Source: an uncultured Mucispirillum sp. (lineage in GTDB: Bacteria; Chrysiogenota; Deferribacteres; Deferribacterales; Mucispirillaceae). Taken from it: a stretch of DNA of 60,817 nucleotides. Location: the NCBI GenBank assembly GCA_944324465.1, contig CALUWI010000015.1, forward strand, positions 1-60,817, in the 5' to 3' direction. Shown piece after piece: positions 11,914-55,774 of the stretch. The notes under the pieces were generated by a model. It saw only the letters and a list, made by a program, of their open reading frames with translations. It had not been told where the DNA came from and ran no database searches. Made by a program: the position numbers and the translations under genes. The number at the start of each line of letters is the position of its first letter. Position 1 is the first letter of the stretch.

Positions 11914-12543
11914 GTGTGTCTTATGATACTGCCGCATGGCTATGCACTGATAATGATGTCATTGGTAGTTAATTTATTAACTCTGCCAATTATGTCATGG
12001 GCAAAACATGTTGAAAATAAAGAAAGAGAAAAGCAGTTTAAAGTTAAGCAGGAAGTAATTGGCATAAAAAAACAGTATAAAGGCGAAGAAGCTTTTAGAA
12101 AGATAGATGCAGTCTATAAAAAATATCATTATTCTGCATTACTTGCATTCCGTGCAGATTTATCAATATTTCTTCAAATTCCCATATTTGTAGCAGCTAT
12201 TACAACTCTTGATAACAACCCTGTATTTAATAATGTTTCTTTTTGGATGATAGATAATCTTGGAGAGCCAGACCACTTATTTTTCGGCTGGAATTTTCTT
12301 CCATTTTTTATGACAGCAGTAAATTTAATTTCCATAAAATTATATAATAATGACAATAAATTTTTTGATAGAGCAAATATTAAATTGATAATAATTGCAT
12401 TACTTTTCCTTGTATATTTGTATGGAAGAAGTTCTGCACTTATGGTATACTGGACAAGTAATAATATTTTATCTACATTAATTATAGTATTAGGATTTGT
12501 CAATAAATATACAAAAGAGAAAGATGAGTCTTCTAATGGATAA
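11914..12543 (+). CDS. YidC/Oxa1-like membrane protein
   Basis: The protein resembles the conserved core of YidC/Oxa1 insertases: a first membrane helix (GYALIMMSLVVNLLTLPI), a charged cytoplasmic hairpin rich in Lys and Gln (KQFKVKQEVIGIKKQYKG), a second helix with FLQIPIFVA and two to three further helices ending in LMVYWTSNNILS, matching the YWxxNN signature. At about 209 residues it lacks the periplasmic domain of true YidC. The first in-frame canonical start is GTG 11914, which has no ribosome site; homologous-looking sequence (IEFIGHILYLICIFPFEYIFSL) continues in frame upstream to an ATA codon at 11839 that follows GAGGGT at 11827. It overlaps the next gene by 20 bases. A glycan-locus role is inferred from position. 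Confidence 0.78.
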   Translation: MCLMILPHGYALIMMSLVVNLLTLPIMSWAKHVENKEREKQFKVKQEVIGIKKQYKGEEAFRKIDAVYKKYHYSALLAFRADLSIFLQIPIFVAAITTLDNNPVFNNVSFWMIDNLGEPDHLFFGWNFLPFFMTAVNLISIKLYNNDNKFFDRANIKLIIIALLFLVYLYGRSSALMVYWTSNNILSTLIIVLGFVNKYTKEKDESSNG

Positions 12544-13390
12544 AAGATTAAATGTGGTTTTACTAATAGACAATGAGCCTCTTTATGCACCTTATGTAAT
12601 AAAGCAATTGCTTAGTGGTTTGAATGATAATTTAATATTAAAAGCTGTTGTTTTTACAGAAGGAAATTACCGCAAAATATCAGATAAACAAAATAAGCAG
12701 GAAATAAACAATTTATATGGCTCATTTAATAGTTTTATGTTGAATTTGTTTTATAGTTATAAGTCTGCAGTATTAAATAATGATGCAGAGAACAACTGCT
12801 TTAGAGTATTAGAAAAAGCTGGTATAGAATATAGAGTAACTAATAGAATAAATTCTGATGAAATAGTTGATTTTATAAAATCAAAAGAAATAGATATATT
12901 ATTTTCATTAACACATCATATATTAAAATCAAATATTCTAAATGCTCCAAAATTAGTATGTATCAACAGACATCCAGGTAAACTGCCAAAACATGCAGGT
13001 TTACAGCCTATTTTATATACTATGCTTGAACAAAAAGATAGCCAGCAGATAACTATTACGCAAACTATGCATACAATGGTAGAGCAAATAGATGCAGGAA
13101 AAATTTTAATAGAAACTGATTACAGTATACCAAGAAATTCGTCATTATTTTATGGTTACACTGTTGTATATAAAGATACTACCAGAATGTTTAATACTGC
13201 AGTAGAAAATTACTTATCAAACCAAATGTATACTCATGATATGAATCAGAGAAAATATTATTCTTTTCCAAATAAAGAAATATGCAAAGAATTCAGAAAA
13301 CTGTATAAGATATTCACTTGGAAAGAATACTTTAATAATATGGGATTAAAAGATAATATCAAACAAATAAATAGGGGGGGGGGTAAGTAG
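12524..13390 (+). CDS. Formyltransferase-family enzyme (probable sugar N-formyltransferase), poly-G tract at its 3' end
   Basis: The 288-residue protein has the formyltransferase core: CINRHPGKLPKHAGLQP with catalytic N148 and H150, and EQIDAGKIL with D190, the Asn-His-Asp triad that transfers formyl from N10-formyl-tetrahydrofolate. In this locus the likely acceptor is an amino sugar, as in VioF or WbtJ-type enzymes; this is inference. A frame opens at TTG 12497 but ATG 12524, just after AGAGAAAG, is more plausible. The gene ends within a run of ten G (13374-13383): with ten it stops at 13390; with nine it would add 11 further residues and stop at 13424, overlapping the next gene's ATG. Confidence 0.8.
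   Translation: MSLLMDKRLNVVLLIDNEPLYAPYVIKQLLSGLNDNLILKAVVFTEGNYRKISDKQNKQEINNLYGSFNSFMLNLFYSYKSAVLNNDAENNCFRVLEKAGIEYRVTNRINSDEIVDFIKSKEIDILFSLTHHILKSNILNAPKLVCINRHPGKLPKHAGLQPILYTMLEQKDSQQITITQTMHTMVEQIDAGKILIETDYSIPRNSSLFYGYTVVYKDTTRMFNTAVENYLSNQMYTHDMNQRKYYSFPNKEICKEFRKLYKIFTWKEYFNNMGLKDNIKQINRGGGK
13374..13383 (+). repeat. Homopolymer G10, candidate slipped-strand site
   Basis: Ten consecutive G in an AT-rich context, at the last codons of the formyltransferase gene. Nine, ten or eleven G give different C-termini: read-through to 13424, stop at 13390, or an immediate TAA. Confidence 0.85.
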
Positions 13391-13392
13391 AC

Positions 13393-13416
13393 AATTATAC
13401 CCTATTGGGTATAATT
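13393..13416 (+). promoter_or_regulatory. Perfect 10-bp hairpin immediately before a start codon
   Basis: AATTATACCC (13393-13402), loop TATT (13403-13406) and GGGTATAATT (13407-13416) form an uninterrupted 10-bp stem directly abutting the ATG at 13417. The only Shine-Dalgarno-like bases, GGG at 13407-13409, lie inside the stem, so folding would hide the start from ribosomes unless translation from upstream opens it. Confidence 0.7.
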
Positions 13417-14061
13417 ATGTCTAAGATAAGATATATAAGAAAAAGCGATTATGAATATATCACTAAAGCGCAAATTAATTATGGAACTTTTGTTAGTGAT
13501 TATGCAGACATACTGACAAAGATACTGATAAATTTTAATAGTTTTTTATCATCAACATTAATTGTTGAAACAGATAATGGCGAAATTATAGGTTTTGATA
13601 TCAATATATTAAAACCATATTCTTTTTGGAAAGAATTTTATAAAAATTTAAGTTTTTTTAAAAAAATAAAGTGGTTATATTCTAATAAAATACAACATGA
13701 TATAATTAATAAATATGATGATGAATTTAAAGATATATACGATGATTTATATAAAATAGATGATAAAGTAGCATATACTTTCCTATATATGTTTGATAAA
13801 AAAATAGAAAATAATATACGAGCAGCAGATGTTGGTATTATGCAGTTGAAATTGATAGCGGATAAATATGAATATCAAACCGCTGAGATAAAAAATAGCA
13901 ATATAGCTTCTATTAAAAGTTATACTAGAAGAGGTTTTAATACAACGAAGTATTTTGAATATGAAAAAGGTGTACTTTTTTCTGTAATCAAGATAGACGA
14001 TATAAGAGATAGTATTAAAAATTATAATATTAATTGCGATATAGACTTAGGAGTTAAATAA
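13417..14061 (+). CDS. GNAT-superfamily acetyltransferase
   Basis: The 214-residue protein begins MSKIRYIRKSDYEYITKAQ and ends with IKNSNIASIKSYTRRGFNTTKYF, the N-x-x-S-I-x-x-Y-x-x-x-G-F pattern of the last acetyl-CoA-binding part of GNAT enzymes. The central 100 residues are divergent and Lys/Asp-rich. It probably acetylates an amino group on a sugar or sugar nucleotide in this pathway, given its place after the formyltransferase. A TTG at 13405 opens the same frame, but the ATG at 13417 is the better start. Its initiation region is occluded by a hairpin (13393-13416). Confidence 0.7.
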   Translation: MSKIRYIRKSDYEYITKAQINYGTFVSDYADILTKILINFNSFLSSTLIVETDNGEIIGFDINILKPYSFWKEFYKNLSFFKKIKWLYSNKIQHDIINKYDDEFKDIYDDLYKIDDKVAYTFLYMFDKKIENNIRAADVGIMQLKLIADKYEYQTAEIKNSNIASIKSYTRRGFNTTKYFEYEKGVLFSVIKIDDIRDSIKNYNINCDIDLGVK

Positions 14062-14062
14062 A

Positions 14063-15178
14063 ATGGGTTTGCTTAATTTCATAAAAGCAAAAAAAAATAT
14101 TAAAAGCTGGTCAGAAAAAAGTATTGTTATTTTTTCAGAAGGGAATGTATATAATACAACAAATAAACCAGTGATTGATGAACTGATAAAAGAAATTGAT
14201 GTATTATATATAACTATAGATAAAGATGATGAACTTCTTTTATTTAATCATGAAAAATTTCATCCAGTCTATTTAGAATTTGACTTCTGGGGACAGCTTT
14301 TAATGGCAACTATTAAGGGTAAGTTGTTTTTAACTGCTACATATAGCCTTGAAGTATTATCACTTAAAAAATCAAAGTTTATGAAATACTATGTATGTAT
14401 GCTTCATTCTAGTACAGATTTACAGGCAGGTCAAAAATATTCATTTGATTTTTTTGATTCAGTAATATGTTTTACTAAAGCACAATTGCAGACATTAGAA
14501 GAGTTGGAACAAATAAGAAAGTCTAGTGTGAAAGAAAAACCACTTCTTGGTTTAGCATATTATGATGTGTATGATAAACTTAATAAAAGTATAGATGTAG
14601 AAGATGATGAAAAATATGTTTTAGTTGCTCCATCATGGGGCAGTAATAATTTTTTAAATTATATAGATTTTGATATATTTGAGTATATTTTTCAGGCAGG
14701 ATATAATGTGATTTTTAGACCACATCCAATGAGTTTAACATATGAAACTGAATTATTATCTAATATTAAATCAAAATATATGAATGGATATAATGGACTT
14801 AAATTTGAAATAGATACAGATAATATTGCTATAAAATCTATTAAAAAGTCATTATGTCTTGTTTCTGCATGCTCTGGTTTTGTTATAGATTATGCAATGT
14901 TTGCAAATAAAGGGCTTATATTATTTAATAATGAAAGAAAGATTGATAATTTAGACCAAATTGACTTACCAAAAAGAATATTTTGGGATGAGCAGGTTGT
15001 GGAAGATATTGCCAGATTTGTTACTACAAAAGAAGATTTTGGCAAAGCATTGACTTATTGTATAAAAGAACAAACTAAGATTGGTAGTAAAATAGAAAAA
15101 TATAGAAATGAAATTATGAACTATGGTAATGCAGCAGTATATATAGCAAAATACTGTGTAGAAAAATATAATTTATAG
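14063..15178 (+). CDS. CDP-glycerol glycerophosphotransferase-like (GT-B) protein
   Basis: The 371-residue protein resembles the TagB/TagF-type glycerophosphotransferase fold: LFLTATYSLEVL and YYVCMLHSSTDL in the N-terminal half, VLVAPSWGSN in the middle, FRPHPMS (the conserved HP of the donor-binding half), then SACSGFVIDYAMF near residue 275, corresponding to the SDYSS-x-x-x-DY element. It probably moves a phospho-polyol or related group from a CDP donor to a glycan. A TagD-like cytidylyltransferase gene ends five bases beyond its end on the other strand, which fits a shared CDP-linked donor. GGAG lies nine bases before the ATG. Confidence 0.72.
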   Translation: MGLLNFIKAKKNIKSWSEKSIVIFSEGNVYNTTNKPVIDELIKEIDVLYITIDKDDELLLFNHEKFHPVYLEFDFWGQLLMATIKGKLFLTATYSLEVLSLKKSKFMKYYVCMLHSSTDLQAGQKYSFDFFDSVICFTKAQLQTLEELEQIRKSSVKEKPLLGLAYYDVYDKLNKSIDVEDDEKYVLVAPSWGSNNFLNYIDFDIFEYIFQAGYNVIFRPHPMSLTYETELLSNIKSKYMNGYNGLKFEIDTDNIAIKSIKKSLCLVSACSGFVIDYAMFANKGLILFNNERKIDNLDQIDLPKRIFWDEQVVEDIARFVTTKEDFGKALTYCIKEQTKIGSKIEKYRNEIMNYGNAAVYIAKYCVEKYNL

Positions 15179-15182
15179 CTGA

Positions 15183-15644
15183 TTATTTTCTTACATCTAC
15201 ATCATCAGGCATATGGGAGCTTGCTTTTTGCTGCAGCTTACTGTATCTTTTATAAATTCTTTCTTTTAAGTTTGAAGAAGATACTCCAGCACCATAAGGG
15301 AAGTATACTACATCTACTCCAAGTTCTCTTAGATAGTCATATTTATGGTTCCAGTCATCGCCTACTACAAAGATATCAAAATTTAAATCTTTAACTTTTT
15401 CAGTATGGTCTAATGACCTTTGTGGTATTACTATATCAGGCATTTTTAATGCTTTCATTAAGGCAATTCTTTCATCAAATGGTATAATAGGTTCAGATTT
15501 ATATGATGCTACTAATTCATCAGTATTAACACCAACAATCAAAATATCACCTAAGGCTCTAGCATATTCCAAAAGTTTTAAATGGTTAATGTGGAGCATA
15601 TCAAATGTTCCTGAAGTATATACAACTGTTTTTCCGCCTATCAT
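15183..15644 (-). CDS. Cytidylyltransferase of the TagD / glycerol-3-phosphate type
   Basis: The 153-residue protein has the nucleotidyltransferase opening TSGTFDMLHINHLKLLEYA, with the HxxH pair H18 and H21 (the usual HxGH glycine is N20), and VGDDWNHKYDYL and GVSSSNLKERI near the end, equivalent to the RTEGISTT/K region. It should activate a small phosphorylated alcohol with CTP. AAGGTG precedes the ATG at 15644 by six bases. It follows the class V aminotransferase by two bases, so the two form an operon; the pairing suggests a CDP-activated amino alcohol rather than plain glycerol. Confidence 0.8.
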   Translation of the reverse strand: MIGGKTVVYTSGTFDMLHINHLKLLEYARALGDILIVGVNTDELVASYKSEPIIPFDERIALMKALKMPDIVIPQRSLDHTEKVKDLNFDIFVVGDDWNHKYDYLRELGVDVVYFPYGAGVSSSNLKERIYKRYSKLQQKASSHMPDDVDVRK

Positions 15645-15646
15645 TT

Positions 15647-16732
15647 TCAACACCTTGATTTAGATAATTCACTGATTGTTTTTTGGAAGGCATTTTTTAG
15701 TAAATCAATTTCTTTATCAGTGATATTACCATAATTACCTATCCTAAAAAGTTTGTGTTTTAGCTCTCCACCAGAAGGAGCAATTTCTATATTATATTTT
15801 TCACGCATTATAGATACTATTTCATAAGCATCATATTTATCTGTATAAACCGCACTGACACAATTTGCTGGATTTTCTGCTAGAATTTTAAAACCAAATT
15901 CAGACAATACACTTCTAATTTTTTTTGTAATATTTTTATAATTAGATTGTATGTTATCTAATCCAATATTTTTTATTTTTTCAAGTCTAACATAAAGCTG
16001 GTCAACAAGAGAAACAGCTGGAGTATATGGAGTTTGATTTCTTTTTAAATCTTTTAAGTGTTCTGATACATCAAAATAATAAGATTTTATATCAGACTGC
16101 ATATGTTTTTTGATTGCTTTTTCATTACAAGAAAGAAAAGAAAGACCAGGAGGCAGTGCAAATGCTTTTTGCGAAGCAGAAATAGCAACATCAACATTCC
16201 ATTTGTCCTGTAAAAATTTATCTGTTATTAATCCACTTATACAATCAACAACAAATAGTATATCTGGATATTTTTCTAATATTTTACCAATTCCTTCAAT
16301 ATCAGTTAATGCACCAGAAGAAGTTTCATTTAAAGTTGCAAATAATATATTAATTTTATTGTTAGATAAGATATTTTCTATGTCATCTAATCGTGCATTT
16401 TTTCCAAATTCTACTTTATGCTCTATGGTTTTTACACCGTAAAACTCGCATATTTTAAGCCATCTTTCACCAAAACTTCCACCATTAATAACTAACACTG
16501 TATCATCTTTACTGCAGAAATTAGATACTGCAGCGTCCATTGCACCAGTTCCTGATGATGAAAAGCATATAACATCATTGTTTGTTTGAAATACATATTT
16601 GAGGTTTTGGAAAATACTGTTCCATTTTTCTGAATATGATGATGTTCTCATATATTCTAAAGGTTTGCTTCCAACCTCGAGAATATCACTTTCTATTTCA
16701 GCAGGTCCTAATACAAATAATAAGTTATGCAT
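15647..16732 (-). CDS. Class V PLP-dependent aminotransferase (2-aminoethylphosphonate transaminase-like)
   Basis: The 361-residue protein shows the class V fold-type I pattern: FSSSGTGAMDAAVSN near residue 57, FATLNETSSGALTDIEG near 131, VVDCISG with D163, and the PLP lysine K189 in AISASQKAFALPPG. This set is closest to PhnW-like and alanine-glyoxylate-like transaminases. The longer frame from 16768 adds 12 residues, but GGAG at seven bases before the ATG at 16732 fixes the start. Co-transcription with the cytidylyltransferase suggests it makes the amine later linked to CDP; a serinol-phosphate or aminoethylphosphonate product are possible, neither proven. Confidence 0.8.
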   Translation of the reverse strand: MHNLLFVLGPAEIESDILEVGSKPLEYMRTSSYSEKWNSIFQNLKYVFQTNNDVICFSSSGTGAMDAAVSNFCSKDDTVLVINGGSFGERWLKICEFYGVKTIEHKVEFGKNARLDDIENILSNNKINILFATLNETSSGALTDIEGIGKILEKYPDILFVVDCISGLITDKFLQDKWNVDVAISASQKAFALPPGLSFLSCNEKAIKKHMQSDIKSYYFDVSEHLKDLKRNQTPYTPAVSLVDQLYVRLEKIKNIGLDNIQSNYKNITKKIRSVLSEFGFKILAENPANCVSAVYTDKYDAYEIVSIMREKYNIEIAPSGGELKHKLFRIGNYGNITDKEIDLLKNAFQKTISELSKSRC

Positions 16733-16796
16733 ATCTATTCTCCATATTATACAAAATACCACGAACAAAAAATAAAATCAATTATTAATATAGAGC

Positions 16797-45613: not shown

Positions 45614-48600
45614 ATGGGAAAAGAAACTAATGTTTTAAAATCATTAGAAGAAAGCTCAGTTTCAAGACGTTCCTTTTTAAAAGGCACAGCAGCTCTTGGT
45701 GCAATGGCTGCTATGTATGGCTGCTCTAAAGATGGCGGCTCAGAAATTATCTACGGGGGGGGGGAATAACAATAATACTCCTATAGTAGATGAAACACTT
45801 GAAGAAACAGTGTTTATGGGCTGTTCACCACACAACTGCGGTGGTGGTGCATGCGGAATTGCTGCCCATGTAGCAGGGGGCAGAGTAGTTAGGTTTACAA
45901 CAGATGACAGACCTGGCTATGATATGATAGATAATAAAGGTGTTTATGATTCTCAAAGAAGAGGCTGCGTTCGCTGCCGTTCTAAAAAACAATGGCTTTA
46001 TCGTCCAGACAGACTTTTATATCCATTAAAACAAACTAAAGAGCGTGGTGATTTATCAGGCTTTGTTAAAATTTCCTGGGCTCAGGCTGCAAGAGAAATT
46101 GCAGAAGAAATGATAAGGATTAAAAATGCTTATGGTCCAGAATCTTTCCATAGATTTTATTCAACTGGTGATGGTGCTGCATATCCTCGTTCTCGTCAAT
46201 TCTCTGCAAACCTTTTATTTGGTTTAGGCGGCGAATATGCTTACCATGATGACTATTCATTCCCTAGCTGGTACACAGCAGGTTACTTTACTTGGGGTAA
46301 CACTTACCCAGGTGCAAACTCTGCTCCAGATTTACAAAACTCAAAAGTAATTGTTTTATGGAGTGGTAACCCTTCTGAAATGATTGGTTCATGTAATGTT
46401 TCTTGGTATTTAACTCAAGCAAGAGATATGGGAGTACCCGTAATTTGTGTTGACCAGCGTATTTCTAAAACTGCATCTATGCTTGCAACTGGTGCAGGAA
46501 ATGTTCCAGCAGTAATCACTCCAGTTGGTGGAACAGATGGTGCATTAATTGCTGCTATGCTTTATCACTTAGTAAAAAAACATTTAGAAACAGTTGACAC
46601 TGGCGATATTTGGCAGACTACTAAATATTTAAACCCAAGAATGGTTGCTAAATATGTTCATGGTTTCTTTGATAATATACCTGCTTCAGGAGAAGGCTCT
46701 ACTTATTCTTATAAAGCAGCAAATAGTGAAACTAATTATCCAGTTGCAGATGGCGGCTCATATTCTGCATATATTTTTGGAAGTGAAAAAATAGCTTTTA
46801 ATAATAAAGCTTCTATTTATCCTGAAGAAATAGGCTATAATACAAGTGATGCTTTATTTGACTGGTATGCTGGTGTTGATGATGCAGGTAATATATTAAC
46901 AGAAAATAGAACAGATAATCTTCATGGCAAAAAAACTAAATGTTATGGTCAAACACCAAAAGATCCAGCATGGGCAGAAAAAATCACTGGTGTTCCTGCT
47001 GATACTATTAAAGCATTTGCAGAATATCTTGCAGAAGTTTCTTATAATAATGACTGGGGTGGTATTTCATTACTGCAGATTGGCGGTTTCCAAAGAAATA
47101 CAGAAGGCGAGCAAGGTATTAGAGCATTCTTTGTTCTTGCTGGTGTATTAGGCTGCTTTGGTAAAAATGGTGCAGCTTTTGGTAACCCATCAGCTTCTGC
47201 TGCAAAAGATGCAAGTGTATTACCATCATTTACTCCACATACTACTCCATGGGCAGATGGTAGCTTAAAAGCTAATATTAAAGCTGGTACAGGACTTCAA
47301 AGTATAGCTGCTGGTATCCCAAATATTCAAGCAAGGTTTGATGATACTAAATTAACAGATGCTGTTTCAAATAAAGAAGGAACTAACAGTTCATTCCCAG
47401 TATTTATGTGGCAGGATGCTATTGAAAAAGGCTCTACTGGTAAATCAAGATGGGGAGCTCCTGATGTAGCTAATGGTCCAGCTATTAAACTTATTTTTAA
47501 CTTTGGTGGTAACTGTGTAGTAAATCAGGCAGGTGATTACAACCTTACTACTCAAATCCTTAAAATGCCAAATGCTCAAACAGTATCAGAAGATGCTAAT
47601 TTCCCTAATAGAAAATATCAGTTAGAATTACTTGTAACATCTGATTTCTTTATGACTTCATCTGCTCAATATTCTGACTATGTTCTTCCTGCTTCTATGG
47701 CTTTTGAACGCAACTTTTATAAAACAGTAGATGATGCAGTTCATTTTTCACCAAAAGCAGTTGATGGTCCAGGTGAAGTATTATCTGACTATGAAATGAC
47801 TTGGAGAATCCATGATTATTTAGGCAGCAATTTCACAGGCGGCTTAACTAATGAAACTACAGAAGTTCGTGATGAACGCTTATTATTAAAAAGCATTTAT
47901 CATGCTCCTACTGCAGGTGAATATGCAGGTATGACTTTTGAAGAATTTGTTGCAAAAGGTCTTGTTACTTCTGGTACTCAAGTAAGTAACCCTATATCAA
48001 TCCAATGGAAAGCATTTAGAGAAGCACCAGGAACTCAAATAACAAATTCAAGTGGGAAACTCCAATATCCAGTAAATACTCCTACTGGTAAAATAGAAGC
48101 TTATTCTCAAGGTATGTGTGAATATTATGAAGCAAGAGGCTTTAATAATGATGATACAACAGTCCAGCTTGTAGGTGGTGGTTCTATTAAAACAAAAGGT
48201 TTTACACATACTAACGGTATGTATGTTTATCCAGTTCCTATGTATATACCTCTTGTTGAAGGTGTTCATGCTTCTAAAGAAGAAGGATATGCTCACCCAG
48301 ACCCATTAGGTACTGAAGCAAAAGGTTATACTTATCGTCTGCATAACTGGCACATGCAGTATCGTTCTCACTCTACATTAAACTCAAATGCATACTTAAA
48401 TGAGCTTTACAAAAAAGACATCAATGGTAACCCAGCATTTTACAGTTTAGACAGAGGTCAAAATAAAGTATATGGCGCAGATGCTGCTATATGCGATGAA
48501 AATGTTTACGAACCAGTATTTGTAAGCCCTAATACTGCTTCTGCTTTAGGCATTCCAGAAAAAGGTGCAAGAGTAGTTATTTATAACGACCGTGGTGCAA

Positions 48601-54325: not shown

Positions 54326-55774
54326 ATGCCTGAAAGTAACATTGTATTAAAACATATAGAAATTGCGAAAAAGATTTATCAGTATATTCTTGATAATAAA
54401 ATACTAAAAGGTGATAAACTTCCTGGCGGCAGAACTTTTGCTGTTCAATATAATGTTAGTAAAAATACAGTATATGAAGCACTGGAGCTGTTGCAGGCAG
54501 ACGGCTATGTAATTATAAAAAAAGACAGCGGTACATTTGTTACTGATAAAATATGGAATACTGCTCTTTCAGGTGCACCTAACTGGGATGCATACATTAA
54601 TAACAGCTGGTCCCATAATAGAAACGAAATATTAGATAATGTATTTTGTGATGAAAGCAGAATAGAAGATGATGTTATATACTTATCTCAGGACTGTCTT
54701 GCATCTAAATTTAATGCATCTGCATATATAAATAAGGCTTTAGAGATTATTCCATATATTATCCAAAAAAATAAACTTTTTACCCAGTATATTTTTCAGG
54801 GCGACCCATTATACAGGAAAACCATTGCAGAGTATCTTAATAAACGGTGGAATACAGATATTGTGCAGAAAGAAAATATGATATTAACCCCGGGTATGCC
54901 AAACAGTATAGATTCACTTATCAGGGGCATTATCAGCAGGCATGATATTATTTATACTGAATCGCCAACATTTTTTCATGCTGTACCGCTGATTTTATCC
55001 CTTGGTCAGCAGGTTTCTGCAATAGAGTGTGATGAAGAAGGCATCTGTATTGATAAACTTTATAAAAATTTAAAAAGAAACGGAAGGCATATTATTTGTG
55101 TTACTCCAACCTGCAGATATCCAAATGGTAAAACAATGAGCCCGAAAAGGCGTCTTGAGCTGCTTGATTTCAGCTATGAAAATAAGATTCCTTTAATAGA
55201 ATTTGATAATATGTTTGATATGGAAAATATATTGCCGCCTTTATATGTGCTTGATAAACATAATATGGTAATTCATGCAGGAAGTATTGCTTATCCTTAT
55301 GCTTTTGGGCTTGGCATTGGCTGGATACTTGCACCAGAATATCTGCTTACAAGGCTTGCAGTTGTATCTATGGAAACAAACCACTATCCAGCTCAATTAA
55401 ACCATTTAATTACTTCTGTAATGCTTTCAGAAAATGTAAATGGGGGGGGGCTTTACAATCAGTTTGTTGACCAGTTTGTACCATTAAGAAATCATCATTT
55501 AGAAGAATGTGAAAAGCTGTTTAAAAAACATTTATCTAATATTGCATCATGGAACACATATAATGAAAGAGGACTTTATTATATTAAAATGGATAATGAT
55601 ATCAGTGTAAAAAAAATGATGAATTATAACAGTATGGTTCGCTTTGCTTCTGGCTCTATTTTTTCAAGTAACGATTCTCAATATATTCTTATTAATGGAC
55701 TTTCTCTTAGTTTGAAAAAATTAAATCAAGGTTTGGAAATTTTAAAATCTATTGCTTTAAAATCTAATAAATAA
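54326..55774 (+). CDS. GntR/MocR-type regulator with aminotransferase-like domain lacking the PLP lysine; contains a G9 tract
   Basis: The 482-residue protein has an N-terminal GntR winged helix (KGDKLPGGRTFAVQYNVSKNTVYEALELLQADGY) and a fold-type I aminotransferase-like domain (LTPGMPNSIDSLIRGI, TPTCRYPNGKTMSPKRR, EFDNMFD, WILAPEYLL). In MocR proteins the PLP lysine follows G-T-F-S; here the segment is GSIAYPYAFG (residues 319-328), with Tyr323 where Lys should be, so covalent PLP binding looks lost. Nine G at 55442-55450 encode three Gly (373-375); a change to eight or ten truncates the protein. It is 18 bases after the radical SAM gene and upstream of the second operon, which it may control. 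Confidence 0.82.
   Translation: MPESNIVLKHIEIAKKIYQYILDNKILKGDKLPGGRTFAVQYNVSKNTVYEALELLQADGYVIIKKDSGTFVTDKIWNTALSGAPNWDAYINNSWSHNRNEILDNVFCDESRIEDDVIYLSQDCLASKFNASAYINKALEIIPYIIQKNKLFTQYIFQGDPLYRKTIAEYLNKRWNTDIVQKENMILTPGMPNSIDSLIRGIISRHDIIYTESPTFFHAVPLILSLGQQVSAIECDEEGICIDKLYKNLKRNGRHIICVTPTCRYPNGKTMSPKRRLELLDFSYENKIPLIEFDNMFDMENILPPLYVLDKHNMVIHAGSIAYPYAFGLGIGWILAPEYLLTRLAVVSMETNHYPAQLNHLITSVMLSENVNGGGLYNQFVDQFVPLRNHHLEECEKLFKKHLSNIASWNTYNERGLYYIKMDNDISVKKMMNYNSMVRFASGSIFSSNDSQYILINGLSLSLKKLNQGLEILKSIALKSNK
55442..55450 (+). repeat. Homopolymer G9 inside the regulator gene
   Basis: Nine G, in frame, encoding Gly373-375. Ten G would end in a TGA within a few codons and eight G would reach a TAA shortly after, both removing about 105 residues. 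Confidence 0.88.

Follow-up and report, generated by a model that had tools for sequence, protein, structure and literature searches.

A homopolymeric run of ten G residues (G10) at positions 13374–13383 on the plus strand, in the last codons of a formyltransferase gene, is far beyond chance in the window (the whole 60,817-nucleotide stretch of Mucispirillum DNA that we analysed, with a G+C content of 31%): G7 words occur there as 11 overlapping matches belonging to three tracts, against 0.56 expected, and none of 100 shuffles reaches 11. Judging from the sequence of this junction and of comparable loci in the genus, the run is probably a contingency tract that lies between two genes and acts on the downstream one. 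The fuller claim, that the tract is hypermutable and acts mainly on translation of the downstream gene, we hold to be evenly balanced; translational coupling through tract length is a plausible component of it.

Frame states at the end of the formyltransferase gene

The formyltransferase gene (12524–13390, plus strand; start at ATG 12524 or 12536, with TTG 12497 also possible) encodes a product that matches PF00551 with an E-value of 1.3e-8 and 35.2 bits, above the curated cut-off of 26.1. The fmt, ArnA and sugar formyltransferase models match at 1.7e-12 and weaker, all below their cut-off, and formyltransferases in the PDB match at 8.4e-9 and weaker. The Pfam match covers residues 98–212 of the 297-residue ORF, and the best alignments to PDB entries extend as far as residue 268 of 288 (numbered from ATG 12524), with the tract beginning at about residue 284. 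A search of the genome contigs with the formyltransferase returned no match, as did plasmid and phage searches, and single-sequence structure models were of no use (mean pLDDT 30.8 and 42.2).

Tract length alters a reading frame, as recomputed for each length. With the ten G of the sequenced state, the frame stops at a TAG (13388–13390) that ends 7 nt past the tract, giving a product that ends in ...NRGGGK and leaving 26 nt (13391–13416) before the ATG of the next gene at 13417. With nine G, the product instead ends in ...NRGGVSRQLYPIGYNYV, at a TAA (13422–13424) that lies inside ATGTCTAA and overlaps that start; with eleven, a TAA that follows the run immediately gives it the ending ...NRGGG and leaves 30 nt to the ATG. 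By the same arithmetic, 12 G is equivalent to 9 G and 8 G to 11 G. The overlap of stop and start at 13417 is thus reached only with 9 or 12 G, the two lying 26 nt apart in the sequenced state, and the contrast between 10 and 11 G is small (gaps of 26 and 30 nt). These frames agree with an earlier note on this DNA, which had placed the G10 tract correctly and given its stops as 13390, 13424 and directly after the run. Fusion of the formyltransferase to the downstream gene, as seen at a related junction in genome G007 (below), is out for the window: with 8 or 11 G the two genes agree in frame, but the TAA directly after the tract stands between them.

With 9, 10 or 11 G, the formyltransferase homology is kept whole, and only the tail after ...QINRGG differs; the tract lies past the end of that homology, and a change in its length is thereby excluded as a cause of truncation in the catalytic region. 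Were the tract to slip in length, the catalytic region would stay intact while only the last residues and the stop would shift, and since the enzyme stays whole, the main consequence would be expected in translation of the next gene. The earlier note had likewise suggested a possibly greater effect on a downstream acetyltransferase than on the formyltransferase itself. That suggestion is supported in part: the homology ends before the tract, so what the frame chiefly changes is how far the stop lies from the next start. The designation of the downstream protein as an acetyltransferase finds no support in Pfam, NCBIfam, PDB sequences or hhalign. The downstream gene (13417–14061, plus strand, 214 aa) is GNAT-like by eye only and has no family match; hhalign gives a probability of 0.2 against three GNATs, and one PHROGs acetyltransferase family appears at an E-value of 0.077 only. 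It was found in one of 59 genomes searched, its own, with no orthologous locus.

The neighbouring junctions are tight. Upstream, the start of the formyltransferase gene overlaps the end of a YidC/Oxa1-like membrane protein gene (11914–12543, plus strand; PF02096, E = 1.1e-17), a short protein of this type being encoded here within a glycan-type gene cluster. Downstream, the next gene of the apparent operon (14063–15178, plus strand, 371 aa) has its ATG one base after the preceding stop at 14061; it is glycerophosphotransferase-like by eye only, with no family match in Pfam or in further profile searches (best E 0.078). Because these neighbours abut or overlap, the 10 G state stands out among them with its 26 nt between genes, and with 9 G this junction, too, would overlap. 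Further along, the minus-strand stretch 15183–16768 encodes two neighbouring enzymes: a CTP_transf_like cytidylyltransferase whose closest model, glycerol-3-phosphate cytidylyltransferase, is below cut-off, and an aminotransferase that matches the models for aspartate-glyoxylate and 2-aminoethylphosphonate aminotransferase, likewise below cut-off.

Hairpin and Shine-Dalgarno potential at the downstream start

Between the tract and the downstream gene lies a perfect palindromic hairpin, AATTATACCC-TATT-GGGTATAATT (13393–13416, plus strand, 24 nt), which adjoins the ATG at 13417. Pairing extends further, joining 13388–13393 with 13418–13423, such that the TAG used with 10 G supplies the first bases of the extended 5' arm and two bases of the ATG are covered (−17.6 kcal/mol). 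The structure is unusually stable in a 57-nt fold (z = −4.8; none of 200 shuffles as stable) and less extreme in a 101-nt fold (z = −2.2; 4 of 200). Perfect stems of at least 9 pairs number 14 across the window, compared with 4.3 on average in ten sequences resampled with a Markov model, and simple arithmetic puts the chance of such a stem in a given 33-nt gap at roughly 0.2 to 0.8%. The palindrome core occurs once in the genome. We rejected two other identities for it: it is not a repeated element, with one further place in the genome at up to one mismatch (it carries one) and, at up to three mismatches, 99 places against 94 for a reversed control; nor is it an intrinsic terminator, being absent from the terminator-like sites. 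Both the hairpin over the start codon and a possible Shine-Dalgarno role for the G run were overlooked in the earlier note.

With the hairpin looped out, the spacing between tract and ATG falls from 33 to 9 nt. Nine G pair with the anti-Shine-Dalgarno at −10.5 kcal/mol, compared with −9.2 for AGGAGG; the anti-Shine-Dalgarno used (CACCTCC) was seen at a 16S-like end in genome G006 and was not found in the window's own assembly. The layout of a split Shine-Dalgarno is therefore present at 13417: an SD-like run, extended spacing and a hairpin that restores functional spacing. The start's own Shine-Dalgarno is weak (−3.8), yet weaker ones are found at 9 of the other 38 starts tested, and while the fold at 13417 is the second most stable of 39 starts, the pairing of its AUG is on average unremarkable, at rank 20 of 39. 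Modelling of the state after a ribosome stops gives an AUG that is almost always paired when the folded 3' end lies at 13440 or beyond (unpaired probability 0.01–0.02 for G11 and G10), and 0.67 and 0.39 for G11 and G10, respectively, when it lies at 13430, an estimate that depends on how much 3' sequence is folded. Because two bases of the ATG are paired in the fold of lowest energy, a simple split Shine-Dalgarno with a purely helpful hairpin is less favoured.

A mechanism consistent with these features would run as follows. With 9 or 12 G, ribosomes translating the formyltransferase gene would traverse the hairpin and terminate just past the next ATG, in ATGTCTAA, a classic overlap of stop and start that would be expected to couple the genes; with 10 or 11 G, they would stop 26 or 30 nt before the ATG, facing a hairpin that in its extended form pairs the start codon, and coupling would be weaker. 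The G run could in addition supply the Shine-Dalgarno sequence for the downstream gene, with the hairpin reducing its distance to 9 nt; we infer this role from T4 genes 38 and 25 as well as from the junctions between fdtA and the acetyltransferase gene in Mucispirillum (both below). The outcome would be a surface-sugar modification that is bright or dim, rather than ON or OFF.

Tracts at gene junctions elsewhere in Mucispirillum

The tract belongs to a large population. The window's own genome (2.42 Mb, 31 contigs) contains 43 overlapping G9 matches, equivalent to 33 tracts of at least nine G, and tracts of this type are present in all ten Mucispirillum genomes searched; together with the excess in the window, this supports the earlier note's reading to the extent that the tract is one of many of contingency type.

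A comparable junction recurs at fdtA. In 7 of 10 Mucispirillum genomes, a G9 or G10 tract lies at the end of fdtA, 9–10 nt before the ATG of a hexapeptide-acetyltransferase-like gene (the three genomes lacking it are 94, 57 and 75% complete). The tract follows a complete FdtA domain (Pfam residues 3–132 of 138) and is shared by genomes whose fdtA DNA identity is as low as 76%; it is absent at four fdtA loci outside the genus. Its length varies between species, at 9 or 10 G, and each of the three frame states is represented in the six genomes that we analysed: the fdtA stop abuts the acetyltransferase ATG in G000 and G003, falls at +3 or +6 in G005 and G007, and is read through to +53 in G006 and G001. 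At a seventh locus, in G002 with 9 G, the stop was read by eye at +6. In all six cases tested, the tract is the sole strong SD-like element of the acetyltransferase gene, with anti-Shine-Dalgarno pairing of −10.5 to −11.6 kcal/mol with the tract and −3.8 to +2.9 without it. The recurrence of this arrangement suggests that placement of the tract is kept on purpose.

A second formyltransferase takes the same arrangement to fusion. In G007, another species, the 569-aa ORF at L054:4930–6639 carries both formyltransferase and GNAT domains (Pfam), and the linker joining them contains a G9 that lies 9 nt upstream of a Met. G001 and G005 instead encode the GNAT portion as a gene of its own, without a tract, whose start coincides exactly with that Met; the G007 tract, too, thus lies at a gene junction. 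There, 9 G fuses the two, 8 G places a stop overlapping the ATG, and 10 G places one just after it. Elsewhere, in G005 (L121, minus strand, tract 1754), another formyltransferase-like gene carries, in one frame, a tract roughly 35 codons from its end, and an ORF that is GNAT-like by eye starts at +161.

That the tracts act on the downstream gene, both by shifting the upstream stop and as that gene's ribosome-binding run, is the most economical reading of these loci. Extended to the genus as a whole, it becomes a tentative proposal, which we consider possible though not probable: that junction contingency tracts in Mucispirillum serve at once as the tail of one sugar-modifying gene, the Shine-Dalgarno of the next and a three-state frame selector (stop before, at or beyond the start, or fusion as in G007), giving graded and reversible expression of the neighbour while the first enzyme is kept.

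We weighed the junction reading of the window tract against the view that the G run arose at, or was brought to, the gene end incidentally and has little effect, given that all states keep the enzyme and may let the next gene start. We sampled 196 tracts from six genomes (33, 43, 34, 31, 29 and 26, the last being 26 of 35 listed), scoring as gene-end tracts those with a frame open for at least 300 nt before the tract and at most 60 nt after it, in every frame. Such placement is rare, at 9 of the 196 sampled, and enrichment of 3'-end tracts as a class was not borne out. The nine comprise the window tract, six fdtA orthologues and two orthologues of another gene (L042 minus 7756 and L164 minus 7623), for which no gene start was found within 200 nt downstream; some 3'-end tracts may thus be incidental, which counts against the junction reading. 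Standing against an incidental origin are the hairpin adjoining the ATG and the retention of the fdtA tract in 7 of 10 genomes while GGG codons are otherwise rare (52 of 922 glycine codons in 29 window ORFs), and we regard such an origin as unlikely.

Further tracts were noted in passing. In G006, a G9 at L087:1726–1746 leaves 9 nt to the ATG that opens a 552-aa gene, VgrG-like by eye at its start, with no gene end upstream. In G007 (L054, minus strand, tract 4299), a G9 at the end of an AMP-ligase gene gives frames that stop at +3, +13 and +92, the next ATG being at +115. The window itself carries a G9 at 55442–55450, late in a GntR/aminotransferase (PdxR/MocR-like) regulator gene, and a G9/G10 at 45755–45764, near the start of a DMSO-reductase-like molybdopterin oxidoreductase gene; G9/G10 tracts likewise occur near the starts of such oxidoreductases, assigned by similar leader sequence, at L034, L044, L051 and L052 in the same genome. 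Tracts at these starts would make anaerobic respiration phase-variable.

An unlikely alternative is that what the tract alters is how the formyltransferase ends at its C-terminus (in GGGK, in GGG or in a longer tail), and with it stability or partner binding, leaving the downstream gene unaffected. The three tails do differ, and the fdtA read-through tail is long and hydrophobic; however, in both genes the conserved region ends before the tails, the tail sequences are unlike between loci, and the spacing of 9–10 nt to the next ATG would be left without an explanation.

It is very unlikely that the element acts in transcription. The palindrome holds TAGACA-16-TATAAT, which matches 11 of 12 positions of a sigma-70-like consensus and is joint best in 10.9 kb, and a tract just upstream could tune such a promoter. 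But transcription would start about 7 nt past the −10, beyond the ATG at 13417, and no in-frame start follows nearby; the spacer does not include the tract; and promoter-like sites overall are not above shuffles (86 against 90.6). Across the genus, 42 of the 196 sampled G/C tracts do fall between a TTGAC-type −35 and a TAnnnT −10, compared with 84 of 20,000 random positions. These include L033, L038, L048 and L050 in the window's own genome; tracts of contingency type in promoter spacers are a major class in the genus.

Known systems and biological meaning

The proposed junction mechanism has partial precedents. In phage T4, a hairpin shortens the distance between Shine-Dalgarno and AUG, 22 nt becoming 5 in gene 38 and 27 nt becoming 11 in gene 25 (PMC3014915). 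The window is similar in that its SD-like run is too distant (33 nt) and an intervening hairpin brings it to 9 nt. It departs from T4 in that the SD-like run is a homopolymer inside the upstream gene and the most stable fold also pairs the AUG.

At tlpB-hp0102 of Helicobacter pylori, the length of a G run gives graded control of a co-transcribed sugar gene; the run lies in the 5' leader, the effector is the small RNA RepG, and the authors argue against direct coupling (PMC8295292). Graded control of a co-transcribed sugar gene by G-run length is what we propose for the window as well, with the run at a gene junction rather than in a 5' leader read by a small RNA. The tlpB leader repeat and RepG (PMC8295292) are also the precedent for the least probable alternative, that the G run or the hairpin is the target of a trans-acting RNA whose control is graded by tract length.

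The window tract resembles the poly-G loci of Campylobacter, Neisseria and Helicobacter, where long G runs in AT-rich genomes lie in surface-sugar genes and promoter spacers and one-base changes alter the frame. It differs from them in lying past the catalytic region, at a junction, where no frame truncates the enzyme and the effect would be expected on the neighbour. An overlapping stop and start is the classic arrangement for translational coupling, and with 9 G the window would have it: the stop would overlap the next start (ATGTCTAA), which the predicted structure may cover. Unlike the classic case, the overlap is present for one tract length in three, the sequenced state having a 26-nt gap. 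Among open-licence papers, where absence is weak evidence, no literature was found on translational coupling with poly-G phase variation, nor on such variation in Mucispirillum generally; in the M. schaedleri genome paper of 2017, the main text is without words starting with "phase" or "homopolymer".

Mucispirillum is a mouse-gut bacterium associated with inflammation, and its genomes hold many contingency tracts, a set that is apparently unreported. The usual view of phase variation is that the gene holding the repeat is itself switched on or off. If the junction reading is true, the neighbour would be the target and control would be graded rather than all-or-none, so that at such loci one would predict the variable surface structures wrongly. 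The conserved fdtA-acetyltransferase junction would offer a clean place to test this control of a neighbour.
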